DNA from: an uncultured Salinisphaerales bacterium
Lineage (GTDB): Bacteria > Pseudomonadota > Gammaproteobacteria > Nevskiales > CAJXLF01
Direction of reading: 5' to 3'
Length of the DNA stretch: 51,749 nt
Assembly (NCBI GenBank): GCA_913055805.1
Contig: CAJXLF010000016.1
Span: 1-51,749 of the forward strand
Part shown: piece by piece, positions 21,444-47,860 of the stretch
How the letters are laid out: each line of letters begins with the position of its first letter
How positions within the stretch are numbered: the first letter of the stretch is position 1
Notes under the pieces: model-generated
What the model was told of the DNA's origin: nothing
Seen by the model: the letters and a program-made list of their open reading frames with translations, nothing else
Databases searched by the model: none
Program-made: the position numbers and the translations under genes

Positions 21444-21616
21444 GGGTGAATATCATTCATGAAATAGTCGCCGGGGCCAAGTGCAGGCCACCTGAGCCTG
21501 GCGGGCCCGATCCAGGAAGGGTCGTTAATGTTCAGCAAGCGTTCATTTAGCAAATGCACAATGGGCAACGTTCCATTTCAAAAGACCGAGTTGGGGATAG
21601 AGTCAAAGGAGCACTC

Positions 21617-22096
21617 ATGAACCGTTTTACAGTTATTTTTCTCAGCAGTGTATTTATAGCCTTGCCCGCCTGGGCCGCGGAAGCGGATGTGCAAGCCGAG
21701 GCCGGGGTGCAAGCCGAAACCGAAGAGGGCCTTTTCAGTCGTGGCTGGAACAACTTCAAGGGATTTTTCGGCTTCAATGGTGAGGAGCAGCCAGTGGAAG
21801 AACAGGCCGCTGCCGAGCCGCAAACCAAGCCAGAGACTGTGGCCGAGGATGATTCGCTGATCGACAAGGCAGCTGAATCCACCAAGGCGGGCGTGGACTG
21901 GACCGCCGACAAGGCCAAAAAAGGCGCCGAATGGACCAAGGAAACGGCCGTTAACGTCAAGGATGATGCCGTAGGCGGCGCCAAGGCGGTTGGCGGGGCT
22001 GTGAAGGAAGGCGCCGGCAAGGTCGGCGGAGCCGTCAAGGATGTGTTCACCTCCGACAGCAAGGTAGAAGCCGAAGCTACGGTGGAAGCTGATTAG
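21617..22096 (+). CDS. Exported Ala/Lys/Glu-rich LEA-like protein 1
   Basis: A 159-residue protein with a signal peptide of about 21 residues (ending LPAWA/AEA). The mature chain is rich in Ala, Lys, Glu, Asp and Gly with almost no Cys or aromatic clusters, apart from one hydrophobic patch, GLFSRGWNNFKGFFGFNGEE. The C-terminal half has short repeats such as DKAKKGAEWTKE and GGAVKEGAGKVGGAVKD, resembling group 3 LEA proteins that protect against drying. AAGGAGC precedes ATG 21617. Its paralogue follows at 22193. Location is probably periplasmic; function inferred only from composition. Confidence 0.75.
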   Translation: MNRFTVIFLSSVFIALPAWAAEADVQAEAGVQAETEEGLFSRGWNNFKGFFGFNGEEQPVEEQAAAEPQTKPETVAEDDSLIDKAAESTKAGVDWTADKAKKGAEWTKETAVNVKDDAVGGAKAVGGAVKEGAGKVGGAVKDVFTSDSKVEAEATVEAD

Positions 22097-22192: not shown

Positions 22193-22723
22193 ATGAATTT
22201 CAAACACATCGCAATCGCCTTGACCGCAGTGGCCATCAGTGCGCCGGCCCTGGCTGAAAGCGAAGCCTCTGTTGGCGCCGATGCCAAGGTGGAAGCCAAG
22301 AGTGAAGGCGGTTTCTTCAGCCGTGCCGTAGACGGGGTGAAAGGCCTGTTCGGCGGTGAGGAAAAGGCCGCAGACAATCAGGTCAAGGATGATGCAGCCA
22401 AGGAAAATGCCGCTGAAGCCAAGGCTGCAGGTCAGGCCAAGGCCGAATCCGCCAAGGACGCGGGTGAAAGCAATGCCGACGCTGCCAAGGCCAAATCCGA
22501 CGAGATGAAGAGTGAAGCCAGCGCCCAGGCTGAAGCCGGCAATGACAAGGCCGGGGACATGAAGGCCGAAGGTGAAGCCAAGGCCAAGGAAATGGGTGAA
22601 AAGGGCGCCGACAAGATGAGCGAAGGTGCTGACAAGACCAAGGATGCGGCCAAGTCCCTGATGGACAGCAAGCCTGAAGCCAAGGTCAAGGCTGACGTCA
22701 AGGTGGACGCTGAAGCCAAGTAA
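22193..22723 (+). CDS. Exported Ala/Lys/Glu-rich LEA-like protein 2
   Basis: A 176-residue paralogue of the preceding gene with a signal peptide ending ISAPALA/ES. It shares the hydrophobic patch right after an acidic stretch (GGFFSRAVDGVKGLFGGEE). The remaining ~110 residues are almost wholly Ala, Lys, Glu, Asp and Gly in helical 11-residue-like repeats (for example AKAAGQAKAESAKDAGES), with no Cys or Trp. The composition fits a natively unfolded, amphipathic, stress-type protein. CAGGAG lies just before the ATG, and a bidirectional terminator follows. Confidence 0.75.
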   Translation: MNFKHIAIALTAVAISAPALAESEASVGADAKVEAKSEGGFFSRAVDGVKGLFGGEEKAADNQVKDDAAKENAAEAKAAGQAKAESAKDAGESNADAAKAKSDEMKSEASAQAEAGNDKAGDMKAEGEAKAKEMGEKGADKMSEGADKTKDAAKSLMDSKPEAKVKADVKVDAEAK

Positions 22724-22823: not shown

Positions 22824-23693
22824 TCACGAGTTTTTTATTACGTCCGGCACCGGCGTATTGGCCGGCACGAAGAAGTCCGGCATGAGCTTGTCGAAAGCTG
22901 TGCCGGGCGTGACTGCATATTTGCCAAAATCGGTTTCACCAGCTTCCGCCAGTACCAGATCATCGATGCAGAAATTGCCGCTGAACTCGCGGCTGTTTTT
23001 GGTGAGAATGGCATAGGCGGCATCACCCATGATGTCCGGTGTGCGACTCTGACTCACCATTTGCTCGCCGCCCAGCAGGTTCTTGACTGCGGCCGTGGCA
23101 ATGGTGGTACGGGGCCACAGGCAATTGAAGGCAATGCCGGCTTTCTTGAATTCGGCGGCCATGGCCCAGGCGTAAATGCTCATGGTGAACTTGGCCAGGG
23201 TGTAGGCGGCATGGTTTTCAAACCATTTGATGTCCATGTCCAGTGGCGGCGCCAGATTCAGTACGTGCGGGTTTTCGGCCTTTTTCAGATGCGGGATGCA
23301 TAGCTTGGAGACCAGATAGGTGCCGCGGCCGTTGATCTGGTGCATCAGATCATAGCGCTTCATGTCGGTGGCTTCGGTGCCGGTCAGGTTGATAGCGCTG
23401 GCGTTGTTGACGCAGACATCAATGCCGCCGAAGGTTTCCACGGCTTTTTCCACCGCCGCCAGCACCTCATCATCGTTGCGGATGTCGGTTTTGATGGGCA
23501 GCGCTTTGCCGCCGGCAGCTTCGATTTCTTCGGCCGCCGTGTAAATAGTGCCGGCCAGCTTGGGGTGTGGTTCGGTGGTTTTGGCGGCAATGACGATGTT
23601 GGCGCCGTCGACAGCAGCACGCTTGGCAATGGCCAGGCCGATGCCGCGCGTGGCGCCGGTAATGAACAGGGTTTTGCCCTTCAGATCAGCCAT
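22824..23693 (-). CDS. HSDL2-like short-chain dehydrogenase
   Basis: A 289-residue SDR with the classical cofactor motif TGATRGIG near residue 12, NNAS at about 100 and the catalytic YTLAK. The segment NLAPPLDMDIKWFENHAAY and the IYTAAEEIEAAGGKALP region match the hydroxysteroid dehydrogenase-like 2 (HSDL2) group, where the usual catalytic Ser context is changed to a PPL loop. The natural substrate of this group is uncertain; fatty acid or steroid metabolism is proposed. It is divergent from the PhoX-family gene across about 118 bp. GGAGA lies upstream of the ATG. Confidence 0.9.
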   Translation of the reverse strand: MADLKGKTLFITGATRGIGLAIAKRAAVDGANIVIAAKTTEPHPKLAGTIYTAAEEIEAAGGKALPIKTDIRNDDEVLAAVEKAVETFGGIDVCVNNASAINLTGTEATDMKRYDLMHQINGRGTYLVSKLCIPHLKKAENPHVLNLAPPLDMDIKWFENHAAYTLAKFTMSIYAWAMAAEFKKAGIAFNCLWPRTTIATAAVKNLLGGEQMVSQSRTPDIMGDAAYAILTKNSREFSGNFCIDDLVLAEAGETDFGKYAVTPGTAFDKLMPDFFVPANTPVPDVIKNS

Positions 23694-23811
23694 GGGGGTC
23701 TCCTCTCAGGCGTCCAGGATTTTGAAACCGTTCGAGTGTGCCAGCAGGCCCGAGCAAAATCCACGACTGGGCAAATACAGATTACCGCTGCAGAGATGAC
23801 ATAATGCCGTC

Positions 23812-25260
23812 ATGATGCGCTTGCAGAATGACGCGTTTCATCAAGACAAAGATCGACAGGATATGCAGGAGAAAACGCTGATAGCCGGGCTGTCGAGGCG
23901 TGAGTTTTTGCGCCGCGGCCTGATTTGTGCCGGTGTGGTGAGTTCGCCATCGCTGTTGCTGGGCTGTGGGTCCGAAGGGGACGGCGGCAGCACTGTGATG
24001 GGCGGTGGCACCATAGTTCCCCCATTACAGAGCACTGCAGATGCCAATGGCCTGCTGTTGCCTGAGGGTTATGTCAGCCGGGTGATCGCCCAGGCGGCAC
24101 AGATGGTGCCGAACACCACCCAACTGTTGCCACTACTGACTTTTCCTGACGGTGCTGCCAGCTTCCCTGATCCGGAAGTGGCTGGCGGCTGGATTCACGT
24201 CATCAACAGCGAAGTGCCCAAGGTGCCTTCATTGCTGGGTATGGGGCTGGATCCTCTGACCGATCCCCTGATCAGCGCCCTGCAGGACCTGGGACTGGAG
24301 CTCAGTCTGTCCGGTGGCGTATTCGCCATCCGTTTCTCACCAGAAGGCGACATTACCGGCGCCTACCGTCTGCTTAATGGCAGCAACACCAATTGCGCCG
24401 GTGGTATGACGCCCTGGGGTACCTGGATTTCCTGCGAGGAAGTGGATAACGGCACTTCCTTTGAAGTGCATCCGCTGGGCCAGGGCATGATCAATGGTGT
24501 GGAGTACCCGATCCGTCTGGATAACCTCGGCATCTTCAAGCATGAAGCCGCAGCGGTGGATCCCCTGCGCAAGCATGTCTATCTCACCGAGGATCAGGGT
24601 GACGGTCGTTTCTACCGCCTGGTGTCCAGTGATAGCCAGCCCTGGGACGGCAGCGTGAAGGGTGATCTTTCGCTGGGTACGCTGCAGGTCGCGCAGGTTG
24701 TGGGTGATGATCCCGCCGCGACCCGGGATGTGATCTGGCATGACTTGCCGGACCCGTCAGGAGCAACGCCAACGCGTGAACAGGTGGCGGCTTCCACGAT
24801 CTTCGACGGCGGCGAGGGCTGCTGGTATCACGAAGGTATCGTCTACTTTACGACCAAGGGTGATAACCGCGTCTGGGCCTATGATGTCGTGGCCAGCACC
24901 CTGGATGTGCTGTATGACGACGACCAGTACGAGAGCCCGGTGCTGACCGGTGTTGATAACGTGATTGTCAGCCCGGAAGGCAATGTGATCGTGGCCGAGG
25001 ACGGGGGTGACATGCAGGCGGTGGTGCTGACGCCCGGCGGGCAGGTGGCGCCGATTGTGCAGGTGCAGGGGCAGGATGCCTCCGAAATTACCGGCCTGGC
25101 GCTGAACCCGGACGGCACCCGCCTGTACTTCAATTCTCAGCGTGGCGGCGACATCCGCATTCCGATCCCGGAACTGCCGGGGCTACCCATCTCGGGTGAA
25201 GTCGGTGGCGGGATTATCTACGAGATTCGCCGCGAAGACGGCGGGAAAATATTCGGATAA
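23812..25260 (+). CDS. PhoX-family (DUF839) phosphatase-like protein, Tat-exported
   Basis: A 482-residue protein of the PhoX/DUF839 beta-propeller family, calcium- and iron-dependent alkaline phosphatases of marine bacteria. Family motifs: NGSNTNCAGGMTPWGTWISC, FKHEAAAVDPLRKHVYLTED and NVIVSPEGNVIVAEDGG. The N-terminus has a twin-arginine signal, LSRREFLRRG, followed by LLLGCGS, which could be a lipobox, so the protein would be exported folded and perhaps lipid-anchored. A second ATG at 23863 gives a more typical Tat signal and may be the true start. No clear Pho box was found in its upstream region. Phosphatase activity is a family inference. Confidence 0.85.
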   Translation: MMRLQNDAFHQDKDRQDMQEKTLIAGLSRREFLRRGLICAGVVSSPSLLLGCGSEGDGGSTVMGGGTIVPPLQSTADANGLLLPEGYVSRVIAQAAQMVPNTTQLLPLLTFPDGAASFPDPEVAGGWIHVINSEVPKVPSLLGMGLDPLTDPLISALQDLGLELSLSGGVFAIRFSPEGDITGAYRLLNGSNTNCAGGMTPWGTWISCEEVDNGTSFEVHPLGQGMINGVEYPIRLDNLGIFKHEAAAVDPLRKHVYLTEDQGDGRFYRLVSSDSQPWDGSVKGDLSLGTLQVAQVVGDDPAATRDVIWHDLPDPSGATPTREQVAASTIFDGGEGCWYHEGIVYFTTKGDNRVWAYDVVASTLDVLYDDDQYESPVLTGVDNVIVSPEGNVIVAEDGGDMQAVVLTPGGQVAPIVQVQGQDASEITGLALNPDGTRLYFNSQRGGDIRIPIPELPGLPISGEVGGGIIYEIRREDGGKIFG

Positions 25261-25363
25261 ATATCATCTCGACTGAAGGCTCAACAACGGAATGGAGATA
25301 TCCCGAACCGGGAGATTTCTCCACGCGTCCGTTTTACTCGCTTGGTCAAAATGACGGTTTGAA

Positions 25364-26209
25364 TCAGGCCGCCTTGCGGGCCCGGTCGAGCGACACCACC
25401 TTGCCGTCGCGGCTCAGCCGGGCGCTCTCGTGGTCGAGATTCACCCAGTGGATGATTTCCATGCTGCCGTCCAGGTTTTCGGCCAGCGCAGTGCAGGATT
25501 CCACCCAATCGCCGCAGTTGTAGTAGGTCACGCCATCGATTTCGCGAATCTCGGCATGGTGGATGTGACCACAGATGACGCCGTCCAGCTTGCGCTTGCG
25601 GCATTCATAGGCCAGCGCTTCCTCGAACTCCGATATGAAGTTCACGGCCACCTTGACCTTGTGCTTCACAAACGCTGACAGCGACCAGTAGGGCATGCCC
25701 GCCCGCGCGCGTCCGTAGTTGAGCCAGCGGTTAACGGCCATCAGCCCGTCATAGGCCTTGTCACCGGCAAAGGCCAGCCAGCGGTGGTAGCGGGTGATGA
25801 CGTCGAACTGGTCGCCGTGCGTGATCAGCAGGCGGCGGCCATCGGCTGTCTCATGCACGACTTCGTTCACGATCTTGATATTGCCGATCTGCAACTCGTA
25901 GTCGACGAACTTGCGCAGGAACTCGTCGTGGTTACCCGTCACATAGTAGACGTCGGTGCCGCGCTTGGATTTGGTCAGCACCTTGCGCACCACATTGGTA
26001 TGCGTCTGCGGCCAGTAGAAAGTGGATTTCAGGCTCCAGCCGTCGATGATGTCGCCGACCAGAAAGAGGTTCTCGCATTCGTTCTGCTTGAGAAACTCTT
26101 CCAGATGGGCAGCCTTGCAATTGGGTGTGCCCAGGTGGACATCCGATATCCACAGGCTGCGGTATTTCTTGCGGCCGGTCTTTCCGGTCTTTTTGATTTT
26201 TTCACTCAT
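25364..26209 (-). CDS. plcP: PlcP-like metallophosphoesterase (phospholipid-degrading), LpxH-related
   Basis: A 281-residue calcineurin-type phosphoesterase of COG2908. Metal ligands from this start are D23 and H25 (SDVHLG), D53 (VGDIIDGW), N93-H94-D95 (GNHDEF), H131 (THGDQFD) and the GHIHH at 214-218. It is usually labelled UDP-2,3-diacylglucosamine diphosphatase, but the SDVHLG/GDIIDGW signature and position beside a diacylglycerol-type glycosyltransferase and ugd match PlcP, the phospholipase C that yields diacylglycerol under phosphate starvation. ATG 26209 follows a purine-rich AGAGAGAAG; ATGs at 26236 and 26287 are alternatives. A 272-bp gap with no gene separates it from the glycosyltransferase. 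Confidence 0.75.
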   Translation of the reverse strand: MSEKIKKTGKTGRKKYRSLWISDVHLGTPNCKAAHLEEFLKQNECENLFLVGDIIDGWSLKSTFYWPQTHTNVVRKVLTKSKRGTDVYYVTGNHDEFLRKFVDYELQIGNIKIVNEVVHETADGRRLLITHGDQFDVITRYHRWLAFAGDKAYDGLMAVNRWLNYGRARAGMPYWSLSAFVKHKVKVAVNFISEFEEALAYECRKRKLDGVICGHIHHAEIREIDGVTYYNCGDWVESCTALAENLDGSMEIIHWVNLDHESARLSRDGKVVSLDRARKAA

Positions 26210-26481
26210 AGTCTTCTCTCTCTTCTCTTTTTCCATGCCTCTACTATGCAAGTACGCTGTTGCACAGCTGTTAAGTGTTTGTGACAAATTGATGAAGCCA
26301 GAGCAGCATCAGCGAGAAGAAGGGGGTCTCGGCAACCGGCTGAACCAGGCCGGAAACGACGATGTAGACATGCAGTCCCGAAGACACCGAGCGGTCACGG
26401 CAGCGGACGGCGATATTCTTCGGCTCAGATGGATTTGGGGAGGGTGTCTCTGCCAGGTTGTCTGGACAGGGCATTATTTAC

Positions 26482-27585
26482 TCAGGCCTGCTTGAGCCTC
26501 GGGGCAGAGGGTGCGGCCGACTTGGCGCCGCTTAATTCGGCTATGAAACGGTGCAGGGTTTGCACGGCCTCGCGCCGGCCGTCCCGGCGATGTGTGTCCA
26601 TGTTGGCCCGGTAGCCGTTTTCGTTGAGCAGGAATTCTTCGATCTGATCGCTGCTGATGTCGGCAAAGCTGCTGCGCCGGCCGATGCCCATGCGTTCCAC
26701 CATGAAGGCATTGAGGCGCTGTTCGAAACAGTCTTCCGGCAGCACGAATACCGGCTTGCCGAAATGAATGGCTTCGCCCATGGCCTGGTTGCCGGAGGTG
26801 GACAGCATGGCGCGGCAGCCGGCCATGTCCTGCACGAATGCCTCGTTGGCGCGTGGCCGGTAGTGCAGATTGCCGTCACGGCCGCGGCGCGTGGTGCCGT
26901 AAACCTTGACCGGAATGGAAAGTCCCTTGAGCGCGGCTTCCACATGCGGCAGGTACTGGTGTTCGCCTTTGTTGAAATAAGCCATCAGGTAGTCGCCGTC
27001 ACTGGCGGTCTGCGCCAGTACTTCATCACGCATCAGCGGGCCGATCACTTCGGTGCCCGCCCAGCGGGGTATGGCCGGGTAGAAGCTGGAAACCAGAATG
27101 CGTTCGGGTATGCCCATCAGGCTCAGATATCCGAGTGCGTCGCGGTGACCCAGCAACCAGTCCTCCCGCGGCAGCGGTGGCTTGCAGTAGGCAATGATGC
27201 CGACGTGGTCGAAGCTGATGCGTGGAATGCCCATGCGTCTAGCCGCACGGTGAGTCCAGGCCTCCGAGTCTGAAATCACCAGATCGGTCTGGTGGTCGCG
27301 AATCAGCTGTTCCACGCGCCGCGTAGCGGCGCCACCCAGCAGCAGATCCGTCATGGGCGAAGCGTTGCGGCGAATGGTCAGTGGTGGCGATATGCGCCCA
27401 CTCTGGTCATAGACATAACCAATGGTGGGAATCTTCACCGTCGGGAAACGCTTGTGCAGCATTTCGTAGGCGTCTTCGCCGGCCAGCACCAGCACGTCGT
27501 GTGTTTTCATCAGCGCGGGCAGTACGGCAGCCGTACGCATGGCGTGGCCGCGTCCGTAACCCATGACACCGTAGATGATCTTCAT
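26482..27585 (-). CDS. MJ1255/VC2487-type glycosyltransferase, probably diacylglycerol-specific (Agt-like)
   Basis: A 367-residue GT-B enzyme of the TIGR00661 group, distantly MurG-like. The N-terminus is IIYGVMGYGRGHAMRT, the acceptor-side glycine loop; the C-terminal donor site has LSTSGNQAMGEAIHFGKP followed by PEDCFEQRLNA. In Pseudomonas aeruginosa an enzyme of this kind next to plcP makes glycolipids during phosphate stress (established for agt1/plcP). Here ugd is 25 bp upstream, so glucuronosyl-diacylglycerol is a reasonable product; glucosyl transfer is also possible. GGAGG precedes the ATG. Confidence 0.78.
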   Translation of the reverse strand: MKIIYGVMGYGRGHAMRTAAVLPALMKTHDVLVLAGEDAYEMLHKRFPTVKIPTIGYVYDQSGRISPPLTIRRNASPMTDLLLGGAATRRVEQLIRDHQTDLVISDSEAWTHRAARRMGIPRISFDHVGIIAYCKPPLPREDWLLGHRDALGYLSLMGIPERILVSSFYPAIPRWAGTEVIGPLMRDEVLAQTASDGDYLMAYFNKGEHQYLPHVEAALKGLSIPVKVYGTTRRGRDGNLHYRPRANEAFVQDMAGCRAMLSTSGNQAMGEAIHFGKPVFVLPEDCFEQRLNAFMVERMGIGRRSSFADISSDQIEEFLLNENGYRANMDTHRRDGRREAVQTLHRFIAELSGAKSAAPSAPRLKQA

Positions 27586-27610
27586 GCCGGCCTCCTGCGA
27601 AACATTGGCA

Positions 27611-29008
27611 TCAGTCCACCACTACCAGGCCGCCGTGTGTGCCGGTCGCCGGCAGCGGCAGGGCGGCAGGTATGGACACAGACCGCTGACCGCGGCCGAT
27701 GCCGTAGTAGGTAAAGCCTCTATCGGCCATGTCCTGCGGGTCGTAGAGATTGCGACCGTCGAAAATGACGGGTTCGTTCAGCAACCGCTCCATGATCGTG
27801 AAGCTGGGGTTGCGGAACAGATGCCACTCGGTGATCACCAGCAGTGCGTCGGCATTCTTCAACGCTTCTTCCGGCGTTTCGCACAGCAACAGGTCACTGC
27901 GGTCGCCGTAGATGCGCTGACATTCGCCCATGGCTTCCGGGTCATAAGCCTGCACCCGGGCGCCGGCGTTCCAGAGTGCATCCATCAGTACGCGGCTGGA
28001 GGCCTCGCGCATGTCATCGGTGTTGGGCTTGAAGGCCAGGCCCCACAGCGCGAAGGTCTTGCCGGCGAGATTGCCCTGGAAGTGCTGCAGTATCTTGCGG
28101 AACAGCACTTCTTTCTGGCGCTCGTTCACCTTGAGTACGGAATCGATCAGCGGCGTGTCGTAGTTCACGCTGTCACCGGTGCGCGCCAGCGCCTGCACAT
28201 CCTTGGGAAAGCAGGAGCCGCCAAAGCCGCAACCCGGGTAGATGAAGTGGTAGCCAATGCGCCGGTCTGCGCCAATGCCGCGGCGAATGGCGTCCACATC
28301 GGCGCCAACGCGGTCGGCCAGATTGGCCATCTCGTTCATGAAGCTGATCTTGGTCGCCAGCATGGCGTTGGCCGCGTACTTGGTCATTTCCGAGGAACGG
28401 ATGTCCATTTCCACAATGCGGTCGGAGCTGCGGTTGAAACCGGCATACAGCTGGCGCAGGGTGCGCGCGGCGCGTTTGCCATCCACACCGATCACGACAC
28501 GGTCGGGTTTCATGAAGTCACTGATGGCCGCGCCTTCCTTGAGAAACTCGGGGTTGGAGGCGACGTCGAAGTCCAGCATCAGCCGGCGTTCGCGCAATTG
28601 TTCGCGAATGGCGCCGCGCACCTTCTCTGTGGTGCCAACCGGTACCGTGGACTTGGTCACCACCAGGCAGTAGTCGCGCATGTGTTCGCCAATGCTTGAG
28701 GCCACGGACAGTACGTGGCTGACGTCCGCCGAACCGTCTTCATCAGGCGGTGTGCCTACGGCAATAAACAGCACTTCGCCGTGGCGCACACCGGCCTCGG
28801 TGGAGGTGGTGAAGCGCAGGCGGCCACCTGCCGTGTTGCGTTCCACCAGGTCTTCCAGGCCAGGTTCGTAGATGGGGATTTCCCCGCGTTGCAGGGCGGC
28901 AATCTTGCCGGCATTAATGTCTACGCAGAGTACGTTATTGCCTTCTTCTGCCAGACAGGCTCCGGTCACAAGACCGACATAACCGGTGCCGAAAATAGTG
29001 ATTTGCAT
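27611..29008 (-). CDS. ugd: UDP-glucose 6-dehydrogenase
   Basis: A 465-residue NAD-dependent enzyme oxidising UDP-glucose to UDP-glucuronate in the cytosol. The N-terminal Rossmann motif is [19 protein letters not shown], the substrate loop has [14 protein letters not shown], and the catalytic Cys is in [13 protein letters not shown]; the C-terminal domain has [16 protein letters not shown]. It is the first gene of a probable operon with the glycosyltransferase and plcP, and has a tandem Pho box upstream, so it likely supplies UDP-glucuronate for phosphate-stress glycolipids. AGAGGAA lies just before the ATG. Confidence 0.95.
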
Positions 29009-29051
29009 TACATTTCCTCTCTATTCCTTTCTTTTTTACGCTGGAAATGCT

Positions 29052-29102
29052 GCGGCAGTGCCGTGACAGAGCGGTGAAAAGAAGATGACGATTTTGCGAC
29101 AG
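29052..29102 (-). promoter_or_regulatory. Tandem Pho box array (PhoB site) upstream of ugd
   Basis: Read on the minus strand, five 7-mers follow each other at exactly 11-bp spacing from 29102: CTGTCGC, TCGTCAT, TTTTCAC, CTGTCAC and CTGCCGC. Each matches the PhoB half-site CTGTCAY in at least 5 of 7 bases, and the fourth matches fully. The 11-bp period is that of classical Pho boxes. The array ends 43 bp before the ugd start, with a possible -10 TAAAAA and an AGAGGAA ribosome-binding site between. Confidence 0.65.
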
Positions 29103-29110
29103 GTGTTTTG

Positions 29111-29905
29111 ATGCAGTTATCCGTATATCAGGTAGATGCCTTTACCCAACGGCTGTTCGGCGGCAATTCCGCGGCGATAGTGCCGCTCGATGAATGGCTG
29201 GACGAGGATTTGCTGCAGGCGATTGCGGCGGAAAACAATCTGTCCGAGACGGCCTATTTTGTGCCCGAACCACCCGGAGGCGAGGCCGACTTCGCCCTGC
29301 GCTGGTTCACCCCTGAAGTCGAGGTCGATCTTTGTGGACATGCCACGCTGGCCACGGCCTGGCTGCTGTTTCATGAGCTGGGCTATAGCGCGGATTCCGT
29401 CAGCTTTGTTACCCGCAGCGGCGTATTGTTCGCTGAGCAGCAGGGTGACAGGGTGGTGATTGATCTGCCGGCACGCGCCTCGGTCGAGGTCGATTGTCCG
29501 GCCCCGTTGGCAGAGGGCCTGGGCAGGCAACCGGCGGCCGTGCGCAGTGGCGCCAACCTGATCGCCGTGTTCGAGTCGGAAGCCGACGTGGCGGCCCTGT
29601 CACCTGATTTTCGCCGGCTGGCCGAGCTGCATCCCCAGGGTGTGATCGTGACTGCACCGGGCGATGAGGTGGATGTGGTATCGCGCTTCTTCGGGCCGTC
29701 TTTCGGTATCGACGAGGATCCGGTTACCGGTTCGGCGCATGCGGATCTGGCGCCCTACTGGTGCGAGCGTCTGGGCAGGGCGGCTTTCAGTGCGCGGCAG
29801 ATTTCCAGGCGCGTCGGGGAACTGGCGGTCGATATGCAGGGTGATCGTGTGCGGCTGGCCGGGCACGGCGTGCTGTATCTGCGCGGCAGTATTGAACTGT
29901 CCTGA
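29111..29905 (+). CDS. PhzF-family isomerase-like protein
   Basis: A 264-residue protein of the PhzF/diaminopimelate-epimerase fold. The N-terminus, YQVDAFTQRLFGGNSAAIV, and the loop NNLSETAYFV with the family's catalytic Glu, DLCGHATLATAW, and DPVTGSAHADLAPYW near the C-terminus are diagnostic. Family members isomerise small metabolites; the substrate is unknown. ATG 29111 is preferred to a TTG 3 bp earlier. It diverges from ugd, and the Pho array lies just before its start, so it could also be affected by PhoB. Confidence 0.9.
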   Translation: MQLSVYQVDAFTQRLFGGNSAAIVPLDEWLDEDLLQAIAAENNLSETAYFVPEPPGGEADFALRWFTPEVEVDLCGHATLATAWLLFHELGYSADSVSFVTRSGVLFAEQQGDRVVIDLPARASVEVDCPAPLAEGLGRQPAAVRSGANLIAVFESEADVAALSPDFRRLAELHPQGVIVTAPGDEVDVVSRFFGPSFGIDEDPVTGSAHADLAPYWCERLGRAAFSARQISRRVGELAVDMQGDRVRLAGHGVLYLRGSIELS

Positions 29906-47630: not shown

Positions 47631-47860
47631 TTATTAATCCTTGTGACTGAATGGGGCTCGACACTGTTATTCCGGTGCTGAGACTTCATAACGGCAGTGG
47701 AGCGGCAGAGCTACTTGTTTGGGGTTACACCTGCTTCCAGAAGCAGACGGCGTTTTGTCGTTTCCTTCTCCCGCGAAGGAATGGACAAAGGTTGGTTATA
47801 CCAGCATACATTCAGCCTGCTGACAGCGTTATGTCAGTGGAGTGCCAGTGCAAGCAGAAC
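47631..47860. other. Gene-free stretch
   Basis: Together with the repeat at 47861-47925 this makes a gap of about 340 bp between the GFA gene and the SDR gene. Composition is less GC-rich than the neighbours and no conserved frame, RNA or repeat could be recognised here; the only clear structure in the gap is the palindrome that follows. Confidence 0.5.

Follow-up and report, generated by a model that had tools for sequence, protein, structure and literature searches.

How might a bacterium that carries the lipid-remodelling phosphoesterase PlcP, with no close homologue of its usual partner Agt, add sugar to the diacylglycerol that PlcP would release under phosphate starvation? The question is raised by a unit of three genes, ugd, a glycosyltransferase gene and plcP, on contig CAJXLF010000016.1 of an uncultured Salinisphaerales bacterium (assembly GCA_913055805.1); the whole stretch that was analysed, 51,749 nucleotides long, is called the window below. 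Lipid remodelling by PlcP and Agt is well known (PMC8528852, PMC4796936, PMC9239053; these and all further papers are cited from excerpts of their text). In P. aeruginosa, the operon PA3219-PA3218 is plcP-agt and the products are glucosyl- and glucuronosyl-diacylglycerol (PMC8528852); Agt of Agrobacterium or Pelagibacter can take both donors (PMC4796936), and Desulfovibrio alaskensis is served by an Agt homologue (PMC5193443). In the window, the gene identities, the Pho-boxes and the pattern by which another enzyme replaces Agt were computed. The unit is probably a PlcP lipid-remodelling system in which an enzyme of the family PF13528 takes the place of Agt and which has its own ugd, with glucuronosyl-diacylglycerol as a main product.

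The phosphoesterase is a PlcP, with 67% identity across 240 amino acids to PlcP of P. aeruginosa, a reference that was recognised by its position before a GT4 glycosyltransferase gene and a gene annotated CyaB, which we take to be the gene adjoining the PA3219-PA3218 operon in PAO1. The calcineurin-type metal-binding motifs DxH, GDxxD, GNHD and GHxH are intact (DVH from 23, GDIID from 52, GNHD from 92 and GHIH from 214), and the enzyme is predicted to hydrolyse phospholipid to diacylglycerol. The alternative that it is LpxH, and that the cluster serves lipid A, would agree with the labels of homologues in plasmid records, where the annotated feature, if present, is UDP-2,3-diacylglucosamine diphosphatase, and with a remote similarity to LpxH of 29% over 123 residues. 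This reading was rejected as having almost no probability: the protein scores 50.2 and 37.6 bits with the LpxH equivalog models, whose cut-offs are 134 and 190.35; a tree of 65 rows (61 different, each labelled according to the best tblastn query) puts PlcP and LpxH on opposite sides of a 100/100 branch and the window protein with PlcP; and a separate gene in the source genome scores above both of these cut-offs (275.5 and 271.4 bits) and adjoins a frame read as peptidyl-prolyl isomerase, the same neighbour that lpxH has in E. coli. An earlier note on this DNA had called the phosphoesterase PlcP-type, had proposed a phylogeny against LpxH, and had warned that the default label LpxH would mislead; the assignment and the warning both hold. 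Six genomes of one genus label (G010, G022, G032, G034, G036 and G046) carry a tandem PlcP pair, with the matches about 130-170 bp apart.

The same note took the glycosyltransferase to be Agt-like, and here it has to be corrected. The protein matches PF13528 (Glyco_trans_1_3) over residues 1-320 with 189 bits, against a gathering cut-off of 25. At E 0.001 it was the only Pfam match, and the GT4 domains PF13439, PF00534 and PF13692 were not reached. Agt1 of P. aeruginosa matches GT4 models, and its best alignment with the window protein covers 52 residues at E 0.04; orthology with Agt was hence rejected. A remote common fold is undisputed, since both are GT-B enzymes and the orthologue in genome G195 matches PF13439 weakly (30.3 against a cut-off of 28.5 bits) in addition to PF13528 (188.9 bits). 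A search of the source genome with Agt1 gave only a partial match of 34% over 121 residues and thus no close homologue.

A structure model of the glycosyltransferase was built from 24 sequences (mean pLDDT 91.4). Its closest folds are YojK, a GT1 enzyme (Z 27.4, rmsd 3.3, 328 residues), the sterol glucosyltransferase UGT51 (Z 26.9, rmsd 3.6, 335 residues) and MurG of P. aeruginosa (Z 25.6, rmsd 2.8, 294 residues). UGT51 and MurG act on membrane lipids, so that the likeness is compatible with a lipid acceptor, yet is no proof of one; the fold lists show GT1 and MurG neighbours, and that no diacylglycerol enzyme appears among them carries no weight as evidence. Diacylglycerol is likely the substrate on which the enzyme acts. 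Viral carriage of the glycosyltransferase was rejected, as 15 stretches matched a pattern and none of them encodes a relative.

That the PF13528 enzyme stands in for Agt in most PlcP genomes of the order was observed from presence and adjacency counts, which rest on hand-compiled tables. PlcP is present in 81 of 85 order genomes. Eight of these carry an Agt1 homologue at 21-63 bp from plcP, and the PF13528 enzyme is absent from all eight. Among the 73 PlcP genomes without adjacent agt the enzyme was found in 71, both misses being incomplete genomes (87% and 76%), and it occurs in one of the four order genomes that lack PlcP. In a class-wide search, an agt homologue was seen in the flanks of 23 of the 29 best-scoring PlcP loci (L133-L161); the corresponding figure for the order loci L039-L067 is 0/29. 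Locus retrieval covered the best 30 or fewer matches of each genome search. Named members of the order with the same glycosyltransferase include Nevskia, Solimonas, Hydrocarboniphaga and Algiphilus, from which the order was taken to be Nevskiales, and the family label of the source genome is absent among the order genomes in the comparison set.

The enzyme is also linked physically to plcP. It adjoins plcP in five gammaproteobacterial genomes, namely that of the window, G195, which has the same gene order, and G066, G004 and G051, where the two genes are divergent. In the enzyme tree the five plcP-linked enzymes cluster (0/500 shuffles as low), although their support as a single group is only 29/79, and the window enzyme groups with that of G195 at 94/91. 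Homologues of the ornithine-lipid genes olsB and olsA lie close to the pair in G195, G066 and G051 (loci L172, L174 and L176); the best NCBIfam models for olsB of G195 and G066 and for olsA of G195 are ornithine-lipid enzymes, with scores below the cut-offs. Among more distant relatives, the PF13528 enzyme of G331 is preceded by plcP and a gene for a PAP2 phosphatase, plcP and a PF13528 gene share an overlap of 4 bp in a Parabacteroides distasonis record, and a record of Aureibacter tunicatorum has a PlcP frame, truncated at the record end, directly before one. Two more Bacteroidota records carry a PF13528 enzyme, and neither is among the records with a PlcP match. Outside the subfamily of the window, the gene immediately ahead of the enzyme encodes a PAP2 phosphatase in 13 of 14 strong PF13528 loci (L103, L109-L113 and L258-L265, with L103 as the exception), unlike in the window; 24 further genomes with PF13528 matches lie outside this count. 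A Pho-like site reaches p <= 0.05 in 5 of 12 upstreams of PAP2-linked PF13528 genes (combined p 5.5e-7, the rows being related), and the PAP2-PF13528 pair may carry out the same chemistry without PlcP.

All three genes of the window unit are co-directional, with the transcriptional order ugd, glycosyltransferase, plcP (Table 1). The arrangement given in the earlier note, with ugd upstream and plcP after a gap of 272 bp, stands, the three genes being real by open reading frames (ORFs) and domain matches. The first spacer measures 25 bp and contains AGGAGG before the glycosyltransferase start. The start of plcP was set at ATG 26209, which has a purine-rich stretch upstream, rather than at TTG 26287 of the mechanical ORF list. 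An RNA element or a hidden gene in the 272-bp gap was rejected, for it showed no stable RNA fold (z 0.49) and no convincing small ORF; no terminator-like site was found in it either. A promoter scan of 23500-29400 returned 0 sigma-70-type sites, with 1.7 expected.

Table 1 Features of the ugd-glycosyltransferase-plcP unit and of related loci
Feature	Position	Strand	Basis and remarks
ugd, UDP-glucose 6-dehydrogenase (predicted)	27611-29008	-	PF03721, PF00984, PF03720 and TIGR03026 above cut-off
PF13528 GT-B glycosyltransferase (GT1/GT28-like), proposed diacylglycerol glycosyltransferase replacing Agt	26482-27585	-	PF13528 match; structure model
plcP, phospholipase C-type metallophosphoesterase (lipid remodelling)	25364-26209	-	Identity to P. 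aeruginosa PlcP; tree; motifs
Main Pho-box (CTGTCGCAAAATCGTCAT), first pair of repeat array	29085-29102	-	94 nt before ugd; 15.9 bits; shuffle p 0.0014
Remaining in-register repeats TTTTCAC, CTGTCAC, CTGCCGC	29052-29084	-	Matches at 29052 and 29063 with 2 mismatches each; 5.1 and 3.2 bits
Second, weaker Pho-like site	26270-26287	-	78 nt before plcP; 9.0 bits; window rank 13; shuffle p 0.02
plcP then PF13528 glycosyltransferase gene, two Bacteroidota plasmid records (distant relatives)	L289 4234-6155; L290 1-1556		

The Pho consensus is a tandem box of the type CTGTCAT-N4-CTGTCAT (PMC8528852). Sites were scored with a matrix made from 30 pstS upstreams of relatives, which was seeded with the 20 having at least 11/14 consensus matches and iterated on sites above 8 bits; the source genome itself has no match to the pstS model used for the training. 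The main Pho-box, before ugd, ranks first in the window on both strands, the next-best site anywhere having 12.2 bits, and it belongs to a series of CTGTCAC-like repeats in an 11-bp register at 29052-29102 (-). It agrees with the strict consensus at only 10/14 positions, and the whole window holds 20 strict-consensus matches with <=3 mismatches against 11.5 expected, so that the case for a Pho-box rests on the array and the matrix score and not on single matches. The heptamer TTGTCAC at 26281-26287, which the earlier note had proposed as a weaker Pho-like site that may give plcP a second promoter, was confirmed as the first half of an 18-bp site. Its distance from plcP is typical of the orthologues: in 43/63 other PlcP loci the best site falls between -130 and -25 and is in the sense orientation. 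Two further Pho-like consensus matches in an 11-bp register, with 2 mismatches each, lie at 47820-47848 (-).

Related loci gave a similar picture. The upstreams of the enzyme in 59 other loci have a median of 8.8 bits, compared with -0.6 in 356 control ORF upstreams (p 4e-27), and contain the best window of their locus in 41/59 cases (1.8 expected). As length was the criterion for choosing the control ORFs, and many of the regions before them are probably coding sequence, this p-value is generous, and shuffles of the same 200 bp are the fairer control; against these, 45/59 reach p <= 0.05. For plcP the median over 63 loci is also 8.8 bits, the upstream is best of its locus in 34 (2.9 expected), and 34/63 reach p <= 0.05 against shuffles. 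Matches starting after residue 25, upstreams shorter than 200 bp and identical upstreams were left out of these sets, and the remaining window-derived row was dropped from each (60 to 59 for the enzyme, 64 to 63 for plcP); the upstream p-values are descriptive, since related loci are not independent. With Pho sites so frequent in its own upstream, also in genomes where its gene is apart from plcP, the enzyme looks like a member of the Pho regulon in its own right. The ugd upstreams used as controls, from nine other genomes and the second copy of the source genome, score <=8.6 bits and reach p <= 0.05 in 1/10; the second copy has no Pho-box upstream. The olsB homologue of the source genome is preceded by a 12.8-bit site, about 79 nt from the likely start. 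The three-gene unit thus looks PhoB-controlled by its sequence, with ugd as an apparent insertion behind the Pho promoter of the enzyme.

Two genes flank the unit. A protein of the PhoX family (PF05787) with a Tat-like start is encoded at 23812-25260 (+), convergent with plcP; Pho control of this gene was rejected (2.0 bits, shuffle p 0.26), although a strict-consensus match with 3 mismatches lies at 23796. A PhzF-family gene at 29108-29905 (+) is divergent from ugd, and the intergenic region with the Pho-box array is common to both.

Ugd is predicted to be a UDP-glucose 6-dehydrogenase from its three UDPG_MGDP_dh domains and TIGR03026, and its translation contains the motif GGSCFPKD. Its gene is the second copy in the genome, the product being 65% identical to that of G000:C5:117266-118588 on another contig. 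The best matches in other genomes have 65-68% identity, and no equivalog cut-off is reached, the closest NCBIfam model being TuaD with 491 bits (cut-off 700). A recent local duplication of the genome's own ugd was not supported, as the copies are only 65% identical and are unresolved in the tree. A second ugd copy behind a Pho-box points to UDP-glucuronate as the donor, and in the source genome this is the donor that the enzyme probably uses, with moderate confidence.

The proposed pathway would run as follows. At low phosphate, PhoB would act on the Pho-box array before ugd, and ugd, the enzyme gene and plcP would be transcribed, with a possible second PhoB input at plcP. PlcP would cut the phospho-headgroup off phospholipids to give diacylglycerol, to which the PF13528 enzyme, and not Agt, would add a sugar, while the added ugd would raise the amount of UDP-glucuronate. 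Glucuronosyl-diacylglycerol, an anionic stand-in for phosphatidylglycerol, would probably be a main product, perhaps together with glucosyl-diacylglycerol.

Several observations weigh against this pathway or parts of it. Neither a close solved structure nor literature on PF13528 activity anchors the acceptor. The enzyme and plcP are adjacent in 4 of the 71 order genomes that have both and otherwise lie apart or on separate contigs, many of the order assemblies being fragmented. Seven order genomes carry the PF13528 enzyme together with a non-adjacent Agt homologue, so that the two are not strictly exclusive, and all eight plcP-agt genomes belong to one family label (f6), which implies few independent switches. 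The Pho-like site at plcP is weak, and p 0.05 is missed by 14/59 enzyme upstreams and 29/63 plcP upstreams. The earlier note had proposed that conservation of ugd in the unit be checked, and it was not found: ugd stands beside the enzyme in one of the 72 order genomes with the enzyme, the source genome, and among 95 enzyme-bearing sequences the six with ugd are all copies of the window locus. No Ugd was found at E 1e-60 in G001, G051, G053 and G060, four of the 72; a PF03720 match is lacking in G060 (91% complete), G001 and G051 have PF03720 proteins that are distant dehydrogenases with 24-30% identity to the window Ugd, and the one in G053 does not match it at 1e-20.

It follows from these four genomes that the enzyme family cannot always depend on UDP-glucuronate, and together with the solitary position of ugd they favour a version of the pathway in which the donor is UDP-glucose, the product is glucosyl-diacylglycerol, and the ugd gene is simply carried along or supplies a different acceptor. 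This version is nevertheless unlikely, given that ugd is here a second copy, stands first after the strongest Pho-box and ends 25 bp before the enzyme, whereas the ten other ugd genes that were checked have no upstream site of comparable score. Known Agt enzymes, moreover, can use both donors (PMC4796936), and by analogy with Agt of Agrobacterium or Pelagibacter the PF13528 family may accept both sugars. A different possibility is that the enzyme and ugd put glucuronate on another envelope molecule under phosphate starvation, such as the lipopolysaccharide core, a polymer or ceramide. The likeness of Ugd to TuaD would fit this, as would the ceramide glucuronosylation described for Caulobacter under phosphate starvation (PMC6445935). 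It is improbable, however, in view of the repeated proximity of the enzyme to plcP and to homologues of ornithine-lipid genes, its replacement of Agt, and a unit without polymer genes. The pathway with glucuronosyl-diacylglycerol was hence preferred.

With the PlcP-Agt systems of Pseudomonas aeruginosa (PA3219-PA3218), Pelagibacter and Methylosinus the unit shares PlcP, a Pho-box promoter and a glycosyltransferase partner, and the same glucosyl- and glucuronosyl-diacylglycerol would be expected; it differs in that the partner is of PF13528 and not a GT4 Agt, that the glycosyltransferase precedes plcP, and that ugd heads the unit. Like the MJ1255/VC2487 family (TIGR00661, PF13528), the enzyme lies above the PF13528 cut-off, but with 112 bits it misses the curated TIGR00661 cut-off of 195.9; one paper calls VC2487 a putative glycosyltransferase and places a ChiS ChIP peak ahead of its gene. 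In Bacillus, teichuronic acid replaces teichoic acid under phosphate starvation, and TuaD/Ugd is encoded in a phosphate-starvation operon. Phosphate control of a UDP-glucose dehydrogenase is likewise predicted for the window, where ugd, unlike in those operons, is near a lipid phosphoesterase and no polymer genes are present in the unit.

The idea that PlcP may have partners besides Agt has been raised before. According to excerpts of two papers, plcP lies beside other putative glycosyltransferases in types 3 and 5 (PMC4796936), and some methanotrophs have another putative diacylglycerol glycosyltransferase (PMC9239053). Literature searches, mostly outside subscription journals and on partial texts, gave no link of a PF13528 enzyme to PlcP, nor a ugd within a plcP unit; the searches on PF13528 activity and on ugd with plcP returned one unrelated paper each, and the one for polar-lipid descriptions of the order had no fitting match.

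Elsewhere in the window, an Ala/Lys/Glu-rich, secreted-looking protein with no Pfam match is encoded at 22193-22723 (+), and a protein resembling it at 21554-22096.

In a wider sense, and tentatively, PF13528 may contain a second, so far unrecognised family of diacylglycerol glycosyltransferases that fills the role of Agt in more than one phylum when phosphate is short. Its diacylglycerol would come from PlcP in Nevskiales-like bacteria and some Bacteroidota, with PAP2 as a possible source in other gammaproteobacteria, and the capture of ugd between the Pho promoter and the enzyme would have fixed an anionic glucuronosyl product in the present organism. Surveys of phosphorus-saving membrane lipids, as far as excerpts describe them, screen for plcP together with agt or btaBA. 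Should a PF13528 enzyme be the partner in most of an order and in some Bacteroidota, many genomes scored as having no glycolipid synthesis would need to be read again, and a function that can be tested could be proposed for glycosyltransferases whose substrate is not known. The capture of ugd would be an example from nature of a stress operon that also provides for one of the sugar donors.

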